DNA of 64,000 bases, from the NCBI RefSeq assembly GCF_963675165.1, contig NC_087380.1:1293803-1357802 (forward strand), read 5' to 3'. Under the pieces are notes generated by a model that was not told the DNA's origin, did no database searches, and worked only from the letters and a program-made list of their open reading frames with translations. How positions within the stretch are numbered: position 1 is the first letter of the stretch; every line of letters starts with the position of its first letter. The stretch is from Halichondria panicea. Lineage: Eukaryota > Porifera > Demospongiae > Suberitida > Halichondriidae. The position numbers were made by a program, and so were the translations under genes. Shown here piece after piece: positions 4,496 to 61,595 of the stretch.

Positions 4496-7400
4496 ATGTT
4501 CCCCTCAAGGTTATTTCTCTGCTGTCTGCTGGGAATTGTTTCCCTAGTGTATGGACAGACTTTGAGTGAGTTGATATGCATGCAGTCAACTATAATTATA
4601 TAGCTAAGCTATAATACTAACTTGTGCTATAAAGATTTGGTATCAGCATCAATTATTGTATTATTGGCATACAGCTCGACCGGCATCAGGCAATGAGCCC
4701 CCTGGCACTAACCACACTGGAAAGATCATCTCGTTCTCTGATGTTGGATCAGGAGTTGGTACTGATCCACGAGCCTGGTATTGCTACACCGGAGTCACTG
4801 GTGGTGTAGTGTGGCAGTTCCCTAATGGGAGTGCATTGCCCATAGTTTTTTACAGGGATGCAATTGGGGATGAACTGTTCATCAGTGCTGTTAGAAATAC
4901 TGCTGTTGTTCTGCATCGTGGTCCCACACACTTCAGTCCTGATGGAGAACACTGCTGTAGGAGGCCTAGCACAGGACTGAGCAGATGTGTCACCTTCAGT
5001 GAGTGCTGACTATATTGTCTATGTCCAATACTAACCCCCGCCCCCACAGCTCCCTGCCCCACACTGAGTCCCCTCACTAATGGAAGGATCTCATACAATG
5101 CAACCACCAACATGGCCACCTACATCTGTAACACTGCTGGTTACGCACCAACCATCACCATGGCCAGTGGATCAGTTCTGCAGATAACTTGTATGAGTGA
5201 TGGTACTAGTGCTGGTACCTGGTCTCCATCACCACCTACAGCCTGTGCATGTGAGTACTGTACCGTCTTCTGATTGTATCGCCATGCATCCTGATGGAAG
5301 CGCCAAATGCACAATAATCAAGCGTTAAGTTCTGAAATTACTTTTTGCTGGCGTTTAGGTAATTAGAAAAGAAACACTGAAATCGAGGCTATAATTATAC
5401 ATACAATTCATCTATTATTGCCCCGTGAAACAGCTACTATTACTTTACGTTGTATCGCTAAACACCACTCTTAAGTTTTATTATTTTTTCTTTCTATTTG
5501 TGCGCTACTGGAAATCATAATTAATTTGTGTGGCTGCAATTAGAAGAAAGACTGTATATAGTACTGCATTCGAGCAATGCAAGCATACATTATTACACTT
5601 CTACTCTCAGTTGTGTATTGTGGCTCCCCACCCACCATTGCCAATGGCTCTCCTGGAGTACCAATTGCAACCCCTGACGCAACCTCCGACAAAGGGACAG
5701 TGACCTACACCTGTGACAGTGGGTATGAGGTCGTCGCCACAGCAATGGCCACATGTATGGCTAATAGGACCTGGGGACCTCCACCAACTTGTCAGCGTAT
5801 GTTATTCTGCTGCATTATATTCCAATCACAATAATATTTTTTGCTTACTCAGCTGTAAATTGTGGGACACCTCCCTCTGTAACCAATGCATCTCCTGGAA
5901 CACCCTCACCTGACACAACTCTCGGAGAGAATGTGACCTACACCTGTGTCAGTGGGTATGAGGTCTCCACTGGAGTCATCACAGCAACAGCTACCTGTAT
6001 GGCTAGTGGGGTGTGGGGACCTCTACCAACTTGTTCACGTAAGTCATGCAAATTGTCCATGTCTTCAAAATCATGTCCCTTCACAGCTGTTGACTGTGGC
6101 TCCTTGGACGCCCCCTCCAATGGAGCAGTGGACACATCCTCTGGAACCACCTTCATGATGACTGCTACCTACACCTGTGACACTGGATACAACATTGTTG
6201 GATCAAACACCACTCGGACTTGTGGGGCCACTGCACTATGGACTCCAGAGGCCCCCACATGTGCACGTGAGTAGCATGAATGACTGTGTAGACTGTATCC
6301 ACTGTGTTCATAATTCACAGCTGTTGACTGTGGTCCCCTCACTGTTCCTAATGGGCAAGTTAGTACATCCTCTGGAACCACCTTCATGAATACTGCCATG
6401 TACACTTGTGATCATGGCTACACTCTCAATGGAGCATCAGATAGAACCTGTCAAGTTAATAGAACCTGTCAAGCTAATAGAACCTGGAGCCTAACAGCAC
6501 CTACCTGTGATCGTGAGTGCTTTAAACAAAACGTACACGACAGCTATAACTTAACATAACATATGTTTTATTAGCTGTTGACTGTGGTCCCCTAAATAAC
6601 ACTCCCAATGGACTAGTCAGTACATCCTCTGGAACCACCTTCATGATGACTGCTACCTACACCTGTAACACTGGATACAACATCGTTGGTAGTGAGAGCA
6701 GAACTTGTGGAGCAAATGGAACAAGTGGAGTGTGGTCAGGAGAACCTCCAGTGTGCAACTGTAAGATTAAGTGACAATCATAATTATTGTGCTTTGATCT
6801 TTTTCTCCCAATCAATCCAGTCATTCCTTTGAGCAGGGGATCGAGTGCCATTGTTAACAACTCTGCCTTATCACTGGCGACCATTGGAGAGGGTTCCTCT
6901 GCCCTCACCTGTCATACTGAGCTCATCACCTGCTGCAGAGGAGAGGACAACAACGGCAGTGCTCTTGGAGGGTGGAGAGGACCAAATGGTGGCAGCATTC
7001 CTGACTCGAATACCAATGGATTCTACGTGTCACGAGGTATAAGCTCCATTAGTCTGAACCTTGTAGAGGGATCCAGTGAAGTAGCTGGTACCTACTGTTG
7101 TCAAGTGCCCAGGGAGAGTGGGGCAACCACTACACATTGTGTCATGGTGACTGGTGAGTGTGGTTGAAATATGCAACCACAGATTAACTCACAATTGTCC
7201 TATTTCGATTCCTCAGTCTCTGCTTCTCTCTCTATTGCTGCTGTTGCTGGTGGGATAGTCGGTGCTATAGTGGTGGTGATTCTAGTGATCCTGCTCATCA
7301 TATTCCTAGTACTGTTCCTAAGGTAAGCCATGCAGATGGTATGTGCATTCATTGTGGATCTAGCTAAAACAATTGTGTACCCACAACAACCCACAGCCTG

Positions 7401-60400: not shown

Positions 60401-61595
60401 ACACAACTTAGACATTCGCAACAATCAAAGATACGTAGCTCTGGAAACAGGCCTGACCCACTTATATATAGCCCATGCACGCTTTTTGTCAAAAATGGAC
60501 AATTTGGGCCAGAAATAAATCACTCATTAAGCACACCATTATTACACTTATTATTATTGAAGCTCAGTGGTCCCCCTCCCTCCAGGGCTACAAGCACCAG
60601 AAGGCATACATCATTGCCCAGAATCCACTGGACTCAACTGTGCGTAACTTCTGGAAGATGATCTATGACAGGAAGTGTGCGGCTGTTGTGATGTTGACTC
60701 CACTCAGTGAGAATGGGAAGGTAAGAGATGGTCTCCATTAGAGGTTCTCCTTGTTGAGTGTGTGTGTGTGTGTGTGTGTGTGTGTAGGAAGCATGCTCCC
60801 AGTACTGGCCAGAGAGTGGCAATGTCACCTCCTTCGGTGAGTTCACCATCGATAACTTGGGAGAGGAAGTCAACACTGGGTTCGTTATGAGGCAACTGAG
60901 CGTACTTAACAAGAAGGTGTGTTATTCATAATAATCTTCAGTTGTTTCTTTATCGTTCCTTAATTTTTTTCTCCAGACAAAAAAACCTCTCCAAATAATT
61001 CAGATTCAAATTCTCGATTGGAAGTCGACTGGTGCATGTGCAAACTTCAAGATTATAACTGACGTCAATGAGGAGGTTGTAAAGGTTCAAAGGAGGACTG
61101 GAAACAAGGCGATTGTGGTCCACTGCAGGTGTGTATTTTTGTGAGTAATTATGTGTTTAATATTTAGTTGTTTCCAGTGACACTGCGACCCGCTCTGGTA
61201 TGTACTGCTCTGTAGCTACTACCATTGACCGTTGCAAGACAGAGGGAGTGGTGGACGTATTTCAGGTGGTCAAGGCTCTCAGGGTCCACAAGCCAGGGGC
61301 AGTACCCTCAGTCGTGAGTTCATCTGCTTAGAGCTATTATATATATAGAGCATGTACCACTTAATTACAAGCAAGATCTCTCAGCTAGCTGTAGAGAGAG
61401 AGGGCTATTATTGCACCATGTATTGCAATAGCTGTGCATCACTTGTATTTCCTACCACACACTATACAGTCATTGTGTGTGTGCAGTGTATGTGTATTAA
61501 TGTGCCACTCCCCCTCACAGGACAACTACAAGGATGTTTTCGAGGCTTTGTTGGTCTACTTGGACTCCTTCGATACTTATGCAAACTTTCTCTAA
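51455..61595 (+). CDS. RPTP copy 5: Ig-Sushi(6)-Ig-TM-Ig-PTP-PTP receptor, intact
   Basis: Predicted 1362 codons in 25 exons: 51455-51524, 51674-52006, 52064-52246, 52544-52729, 52783-52965, 53020-53196, 53251-53424, 53490-53675, 53731-54060, 54124-54229, 54368-54474, 54551-54748, 55343-55539, 55644-55728, 56005-56087, 56178-56214, 56374-56588, 58078-58374, 59979-60222, 60288-60358, 60586-60720, 60788-60916, 60977-61128, 61178-61313, 61521-61595. Phases sum to 4089 nt without a stop. TM about residues 617-640. D1 has WPDHG (Asp about 971) and [10 protein letters not shown] (Cys about 1003). D2 has HCSDTATRSG (Cys about 1292), no WPD. The juxtamembrane exon lacks the three residues SKH present in copies 1-4. 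Introns 17 and 18 are enlarged by transposon insertions (56685-57930 and about 58476-59332). The PTP exons are closest to copy 4, but exons 9-10 resemble copy 1, so it is a mosaic. Confidence 0.87.
55776..55991. repeat. (CA)n microsatellite of about 215 bp, copy 5 intron 14
   Basis: Same position and flanks as the tract at 44085-44290, slightly longer. It ends 13 nt before the acceptor of the exon starting at 56005. Confidence 0.95.
56685..57930. mobile_element. ~1.25-kb insertion in intron 17 of copy 5
   Basis: Relative to copy 4 (TTTTGTTATTGTGAAATGTTTG near 45081) the intron is interrupted after TTTTGTTATT and resumes at TGTGAAGTGTTTG. The insertion opens with a GC-rich near-palindrome, ACCCGAGGCGCGCG...CGGCCACGGGT, unlike anything around it. 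It hosts a second, cleanly bounded element at 56906-57508. No transposase was seen. Confidence 0.7.
56906..57508. mobile_element. 603-bp MULE-like element, perfect 52-bp TIRs, 11-bp target duplication
   Basis: The terminal repeats at 56906-56957 and 57457-57508 are perfect reverse complements over 52 bp; they begin AGTCTCGAATACCCGCCTCA. The flanks are identical 11-mers, ACTTGCACGTT, at 56895-56905 and 57509-57519. Long TIRs and a 9-11-bp duplication are typical of Mutator-like elements, so I class it there by structure only. An open frame at 57147-57491 (114 codons) has no recognisable domain and is not called as a gene. Perfect TIRs imply recent movement. Confidence 0.85.
58476..59332. mobile_element. 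~0.85-kb insertion in intron 18 of copy 5
   Basis: Copy 4 reads ATAATTATAGTATACTGGTATTATAAAAATG at this place. Copy 5 is interrupted after ATAATTATAGTATA and resumes at GGTATTATAAAAATG. The insert includes an open frame at 58567-58845 (92 codons) without recognisable domains, a duplicated TCATAAATTGGCACCTCA motif and a foldback at its right side. Origin unknown. Confidence 0.6.
59212..59327. mobile_element. foldback hairpin with GGGGTTTATGACAGTAAACC arms
   Basis: The 20-bp arms at 59231-59250 and 59288-59307 are perfect reverse complements. Imperfect pairing extends outward (CAATTAATGCACAGTG against CACTGTACATTAACT) for about 20 bp more. The loop has CCTCGGGC/GCCCTCG motifs similar to the foldback at 49233-49408. 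It lies within the 0.85-kb insertion. Confidence 0.8.
60757..60785. repeat. (TG)14 tract directly before the exon 22 acceptor, copy 5
   Basis: A pure TG tract runs into the acceptor TAG before 60788. Confidence 0.85.

Follow-up and report, generated by a model that had tools for sequence, protein, structure and literature searches.

The DNA analysed was a 64,000-nucleotide (nt) stretch of the Halichondria panicea genome, hereafter the window (C4:1293803–1357802, C4 being the contig that carries it). It contained a tandem array of genes for receptor protein tyrosine phosphatases (RPTPs) with an ectodomain of Ig-like and Sushi domains. Gene models were built with a purpose-written spliced protein-to-DNA aligner, and the genome searched comprised 131.5 Mb in 39 contigs. 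Spliced alignment recovered five full-length copies, A to E, all on the plus strand between positions 4496 and 61595, as well as the 3′ end of one more copy. Three copies were intact RPTP genes: A (4496–13326; 25 exons, six Sushi domains, 1374 amino acids (aa), coding sequence with stop 4125 nt), D (39635–47897; 26 exons, seven Sushi domains, 1424 aa, 4275 nt) and E (51455–61595; 25 exons, six Sushi domains, 1362 aa, 4089 nt). Their models contained no stops and no frameshifts, and all introns were of the GT-AG type (24/24, 25/25 and 24/24 in A, D and E, respectively). Over the same exons, frame 0 had no stops versus 55–100 in each other frame, which excludes chance for these three copies.

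Copy B (17238–26172) was full-length but degenerate: its sixth Sushi exon no longer has an acceptor (TATTTG in place of TATTAG), and its I-set exon carries a 2-nt deletion. Copy C (28431–37301) was a pseudogene: Sushi 1 is shifted out of frame by 1 nt at 29145, and two stops interrupt the reading frame, in the exons for the second Ig-like domain (Ig2) and the second phosphatase domain (D2). The initial annotation had counted five complete copies and a fragment; all five are full-length, but only three of them are intact. The fragment, at 1–1958 on the plus strand, was found by spliced alignment and blastn to contain D2 exons from 268 to a TAA at 1958, with a frameshift at 977 in the spliced alignment. 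We interpret it as the 3′ end of a preceding gene that is cut by the window edge and has its earlier exons upstream, where the candidates are an exon for the first Ig-like domain (Ig1) at C4:1286961 and an I-set exon at C4:1289876. The coding lengths of D and E equal those given before, whereas A was 4125 nt instead of 4131 nt, the earlier sum implying a donor that lies 6 nt beyond the GTGAGT chosen here.

Domain composition of the receptors

Copy A illustrates the layout, with all exons on the plus strand. Exon 1 (4496–4565, phase 0-1) encoded a signal peptide, identified as a hydrophobic N-terminus by hydropathy only. Exon 2 (4675–4998), assigned by spliced alignment, encoded Ig1, the domain in which nonsynonymous exceeded synonymous divergence (dN > dS). 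Exons 3–8 (5050–5250, 5611–5796, 5853–6038, 6087–6266, 6321–6512 and 6575–6760) encoded six Sushi domains, supported by spliced alignment and Pfam, and exon 9 (6821–7153) encoded Ig2, supported by spliced alignment and, weakly, by profile matches to PDB Ig proteins. Exons 10–11 (7217–7579; spliced alignment, hydropathy) held the transmembrane (TM) helix, the stop-transfer stretch RQSRKK and the juxtamembrane region. Exons 12–13 (7654–8857) encoded an I-set domain detected with Pfam, the end of exon 13 running into the first protein tyrosine phosphatase (PTP) domain, D1. The remainder of D1, with a WPD loop, was encoded by exons 14–18 (8957–11360), and D2, with an altered P-loop (HCSDTATRSG), no WPD and a TAA stop, by exons 19–25 (11688–13326); both were found by spliced alignment and Pfam. 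The seventh Sushi exon of copy D, placed by spliced alignment, was at 41537–41719. The order proposed in the initial annotation (signal peptide, Ig-like, six to seven Sushi, Ig-like, TM, Ig, PTP, PTP) was recovered by spliced alignment. The models also bear out its one Sushi domain per phase 1-1 exon; Ig-like and Sushi exons were phase 1-1 throughout, with one domain per exon. A long (CA)n microsatellite (approximately 44060–44310) was observed in the copy D intron directly before a PTP D1 exon.

Pfam was run on the full products of A and D and on residues 1–786 of E. Sushi matched seven stretches in D (1.5e-44), five in A (4.2e-39) and five in E. I-set was detected in D (1.6e-12) and in A (1.4e-12, residues 695–781), and Y_phosphatase matched two stretches each in A and D (3.9e-137 in D). 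The domain search thus returned Sushi, I-set and two Y_phosphatase domains as the initial annotation had them, but not its two outer Ig-like domains, which stayed below the cut-off. No FN3, MAM or carbonic-anhydrase-like ectodomain was matched in the same sequences, whereas the ectodomains of known vertebrate RPTP subfamilies are of the FN3, MAM or carbonic-anhydrase-like type. The products had the composition of tandem-domain RPTPs, namely a signal peptide and a single TM segment (both by hydropathy) and two cytoplasmic PTP domains. Besides the signal peptide, the only strong hydrophobic segment was the TM segment (approximately residues 615–655 in A), which ended in a basic stop-transfer stretch.

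The Ig domain that had been listed after the TM segment was confirmed as I-set, and its side of the membrane is added here. It is probably cytoplasmic, since it follows the TM segment (residues 695–781 in A) and lacks the canonical cysteine pair: compared with the usual I-set pattern, P and L stood at the cysteine positions in all three intact copies. D and E each kept one cysteine elsewhere in the domain. A cytosolic I-set domain is expected to have no canonical cysteine pair. In D1, the WPD loop (WPDHGVPD) and the HCX5R P-loop were read in all five copies; the domain carries all the usual catalytic motifs and is predicted to be catalytic. D2, which retained HCX5R without WPD, is probably inactive. 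Of the solved structures in the PDB, PTPRS and LAR came closest to D1-D2 of copy D (1.5e-142).

Ig1 and Ig2 are labelled Ig-like on weaker grounds than the other domains. An hhalign comparison of their profiles showed the two to be related (probability 95%). In the Ig1 alignment, short stretches of variable sequence interrupted a conserved framework, several of these stretches lying in the middle and the C-terminal half. These may be called reminiscent of variable-domain loops, as a description rather than a structural result.

Related receptor genes on the same contig

A search with the first cytoplasmic I-set exon gave 37 strong places in the genome, 35 on C4 and two on contig C1. Nine of these formed an array at C4:1.270–1.38 Mb, and all nine had Ig1 and Ig2 matches upstream; the window holds five copies of this array plus one 3′ end. 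Beyond the array, five more places on C4 had an Ig1 match within 5 kb, and three were ambiguous. When Ig1 and I-set matches were paired by distance, 17/35 places had a partner at first, and 14/35 had one within 5 kb. The lower count is the safer one because three of eight minus-strand pairs spanned 8–12.6 kb and two of these three enclosed a tyrosine-tail exon.

A cytoplasmic cassette of the kind seen in the array was found in gene L029 (C4:335.6–337.4 kb), the only gene read nearly whole in a group of places at 330–482 kb, where it followed about eight Sushi domains and a distant Ig2. From this combination, ectodomain and cytoplasmic cassette appear to recombine as modules. Stretches of the L029 D2 had up to 97% protein identity to copy A (46 residues), and the ectodomain of the next gene was strongly different; this suggests gene conversion of the cytoplasmic cassette. 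Within the receptor cluster, D2 phosphatase fragments at C4:551.7–552.4 kb (L054), one of them inverted, suggest rearrangement. Sushi domains appeared massively expanded in the genome (4112 first-look candidates, 150 of them scored), at C2:6.45 Mb, C9:5.6 Mb, C15:3.86 Mb, on C4 and elsewhere.

Genes with a similar ectodomain and another tail were located at C4:1.74–1.81 Mb. Four of seven gene intervals there were open and encoded a signal peptide, Ig1, six Sushi domains, Ig2, a different TM segment and a short tail with four tyrosines; in one of the four, the first aligned codon was not ATG. The Ig2 of these siblings had 82–86% identity to that of copy A, and Pfam detected six Sushi domains only in the one open sibling submitted. 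The tail exon had 51 matches, 42 of which covered at least 47 of its 56 residues, and 39 of these 42 were on C4. Many tail exons lay among the RPTP places at C4:530–800 kb and some just past the array at 1.385–1.417 Mb. At C4:540–548 kb, an RPTP-type first exon followed a tyrosine-tail exon by approximately 200 bp on the same strand. In the 24 near-full tail exons that were read, the four tyrosines were kept in 21, 24, 23 and 24 tails, respectively. A third tail type had 14 matches, 12 of them at C4:955–1010 kb, where five of 14 gene intervals contained neither stop nor frameshift, one of these being without Ig1. Similar ectodomains on differing signalling tails within one locus are a feature of paired receptors, and the interleaving of phosphatase and tyrosine tails in one cluster suggests that the present genes are of this kind. 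It likewise suggests a balance set by phosphorylation versus dephosphorylation.

Tyrosine kinase matches were clustered on the same contig at C4:2.52–2.76 Mb (L022, L024 and L025). A link between this cluster and the receptors was considered and rejected: none of the window domains matched within the four stretches of 10 kb read from it, and the three open reading frames ≥230 aa long found near it differed from, and were unrelated to, the Ig/Sushi ectodomain. At C10:1.70–1.94 Mb and C15:4.0 Mb, tyrosine kinase matches were also seen in tandem, within long single open frames that mostly measured approximately 560–640 aa. The sole COX1 match in the genome (C1:5280527–5280718, L032) was short, had two in-frame TGA codons and is probably a nuclear copy of mitochondrial DNA.

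Selection and interpretation

Divergence was compared by domain with Nei–Gojobori (NG86) dN/dS among A, D, E and an upstream copy, F. Copy F was used without its last D1 exon and D2, everything beyond exon 17 being excluded, so that D2 values came from the three intact copies only. The by-domain comparison likewise omitted the signal peptide exon, the seventh Sushi exon of D, exon 3 of C and exons 8, 11 and 12 of B. The ratio was 1.60 for Ig1, 0.65 for Sushi, 0.40 for Ig2, 0.39 for the TM and juxtamembrane region, 0.52 for I-set, 0.18 for D1 and 0.19 for D2. Over all six copies, dN exceeded dS for Ig1 in 14 of 15 pairs. The genome gave 72 matches to Ig1, in some cases several for a single domain, and 20 full-length Ig1 sequences were tested, 15 from DNA beyond the window and five from within it, including B and C. 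Their pooled dN/dS was 1.34 (codon-bootstrap 95% interval 1.03–1.76), with dN > dS in 157 of 190 pairs. In ten disjoint pairs, the ratio of nonsynonymous to synonymous differences per site (pN/pS) was 1.37 and exceeded 1 in eight (one-sided Fisher p = 0.003). A dN/dS of 2.4 for hypervariable Ig1 columns was discarded as evidence, the columns having been picked by entropy, which makes the value circular. Diversification of Ig1 combined with constraint on D1 and D2 is the pattern that would be expected of a recognition receptor whose output is fixed.

We consider it probable that the locus is a diversifying complex of paired recognition receptors, in which the inhibitory-type member has its own phosphatase and is accompanied by tyrosine-tailed siblings. 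The gene models, the domain order, the shared ectodomains, the tail tyrosines, the interleaving of the two kinds of gene, dN > dS in Ig1 and the constraint on D1 and D2 were read from the sequence. From them we infer ligand recognition, opposite signalling and an immune or allorecognition use. The outermost Ig1, with its variable stretches, would recognise a changing partner, and the Sushi rod and Ig2 would hold it off the membrane. Inside the cell, the I-set domain without the canonical cysteine pair would join the TM segment to D1, followed by the probably inactive D2. Both kinds of receptor would engage ligands at the same contact; a kinase would phosphorylate the tyrosine tail to give a positive signal, which the RPTP sibling would set or cancel by dephosphorylation.

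Several results weigh against this interpretation. Ig1 had no Pfam match over the cut-off in A, D or E, and none of 11 Ig2 members passed it. The Ig2 profile built from these 11 sequences found titin first in the PDB (1.6e-4 for the whole chain, 1.8 for the best single domain), followed by weak matches, mostly to Ig proteins. AlphaFold models, made for the window copies alone, had a mean predicted local distance difference test score of 34 for Ig1 and 41 for Ig2, too low to use. Eighteen of the 35 cytoplasmic-cassette places on C4, those at 330–482 kb, had no upstream Ig1 match. Among the genes with other tails, three of seven and nine of 14 intervals were not open, from decay or poor query fit, and the RPTP-type model at C4:540–548 kb needed a frameshift and is not intact as modelled. 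None of the 24 tails read contained a strict immunoreceptor tyrosine-based activation motif (ITAM; YxxL/I x6–12 YxxL/I), although 21 did if V was allowed at +3, and the dN/dS of the tail exon was 0.70. Of the ten disjoint Ig1 pairs, two had pN/pS below 1. The NG86 counts ignore recombination, and synonymous divergence was uneven (0.37 in Sushi, 0.09 in D1), a sign of gene conversion, which can distort dN/dS ratios.

The genes may encode pattern receptors directed at microbes or complement, with the Sushi rod and Ig1 binding microbial or opsonin ligands and the phosphatase setting an innate threshold; this is compatible with paired receptors, from which it differs in the ligand. Sushi or complement control protein (CCP) domains are typical of complement regulators and, as noted above, very abundant in this genome, and the present results do not distinguish microbial from self ligands; we regard the proposal as possible, if rather doubtful. 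It is unlikely that the genes are ordinary adhesion RPTPs comparable to R2B or LAR, acting in cell-cell or cell-matrix adhesion after a recent tandem expansion and having no self/non-self or immune role. The nearest solved structures of D1-D2, PTPRS and LAR, agree with such a role, and Sushi and Ig domains are common among adhesion proteins, but the confinement of dN > dS to the outermost domain, the turnover of copies with degenerate members and the interleaving with siblings that bear other tails are more usual in recognition receptors.

The remaining two explanations concern the genes themselves. Siblings that carry the same ectodomain on another tail, and introns of up to 1.6 kb between some PTP exons, could mean that an Ig-Sushi receptor gene and a separate PTP gene had been read as one. 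This is highly improbable: in A, D and E, a single open frame with matching phases ran from the TM segment through the juxtamembrane region and I-set into PTP, the TM exon contained no stop, the frame of copy F was also continuous as far as read, and the domain order of L029 was identical. We reject the two-gene model on frame, phase and splice sites. We give equally little credence to a mostly decaying array without a function of its own. The degeneration of B and C and a frameshift in the copy preceding A would favour it, but three copies remained open over approximately 4.1–4.3 kb, with dN/dS near 0.18 in D1 and D2.

On the paired-receptor interpretation, a wider proposal can be made, which we put forward tentatively: that, independently of birds and of vertebrate receptors with immunoreceptor tyrosine-based inhibition motifs (ITIMs), an invertebrate has evolved a large germline complex of paired receptors for self/non-self recognition. 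It would comprise dozens of phosphatase-tailed and dozens of tyrosine-tailed genes on one contig, with a hypervariable V-like N-terminus and an inhibitory arm formed by RPTPs with an intracellular Ig linker. If so, the same solution, a Sushi RPTP beside tyrosine-motif siblings of similar ectodomain, has been reached at least twice, and a kinase/phosphatase balance between paired receptors would be a general route to recognition thresholds, beyond ITIM signalling. The genes would then also be concrete candidates for recognition in the source animal, with the variable domain named. An Ig domain without canonical cysteines between membrane and phosphatase is an unexplained feature of their design.

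Comparison with known receptor systems

The present receptors share tandem D1 and D2 domains with type R2A RPTPs (LAR, PTPRS and PTPRD), two of which, PTPRS and LAR, are their nearest solved structures. The ectodomain of type R2A RPTPs consists of Ig and FN3 domains; to our knowledge, they have no Sushi domains and no cytoplasmic Ig domain. Shared ectodomains on opposite signalling tails within one cluster are known from the vertebrate KIR, LILR and SIRP families. Inhibitory receptors of that type recruit phosphatases through ITIMs, whereas in the present genes the phosphatase is built into the receptor.

Ig and Sushi domains are also combined in receptors of Botryllus that act as allorecognition effectors, according to the accessible part of PMC12065747: fester has Ig and Sushi domains and three TM segments, and the fester co-receptor (FcoR) has a V-Ig, a Sushi and two C2-Ig domains. 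The likeness extends to a large single-locus family and, in FcoR tails, to tyrosine motifs. In contrast, those receptors have one Sushi domain versus four to seven here, and no catalytic phosphatase is described for them in that part of the paper; the present receptors have a single TM segment and tandem PTP domains in place of three TM segments or an ITIM/hemITAM tail. The combination of an Ig/Sushi/Ig ectodomain with a cytoplasmic Ig domain and tandem PTP domains was not recognised in any of the literature matches listed, which were mainly open-licence. Sushi is not mentioned in PMC5336234, on R3 RPTPs including a sponge sequence, and the relevant passage of PMC9083331, on CCP proteins of synapses, contains no RPTP with CCP.

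The initial annotation was borne out in part: RPTPs with an Ig-like/Sushi/Ig-like ectodomain are indeed arrayed in tandem, but its suggestion that no RPTP family built on Sushi/CCP had been described is contradicted by chicken Mystran, an RPTP with CCP (PMC4372362). In the accessible part of that paper, Mystran has one CCP (predicted slightly below threshold), two FN3 and two PTP domains, and the homologue in lizard has three each of CCP and FN3. Its siblings Trojan and Thracian share the ectodomain type, one of them with an ITAM, and the Trojan family, of three genes in the birds studied and four in cuckoo, shows positive selection on the ectodomain, a conserved phosphatase and gene conversion (PMC4372362). 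As far as these descriptions go, the two systems agree in a CCP (Sushi) RPTP with two PTP domains, in adjacent siblings with a similar ectodomain and another tail, and in selection outside, conservation inside and gene conversion. They differ in that the present family is Ig-Sushi-Ig without an FN3 match, has a cytoplasmic I-set domain and no strict ITAM, and comprises dozens of genes compared with three or four; Mystran is set apart by a description, in the part available, that includes neither Ig-like domains nor a cytoplasmic I-set. Since no FN3 was matched, we regard Trojan and Mystran as probable analogues rather than members of the same family, with a likeness that rests on design. By that measure, Mystran, Trojan and Thracian appear to be the nearest published counterpart of the receptors described here.

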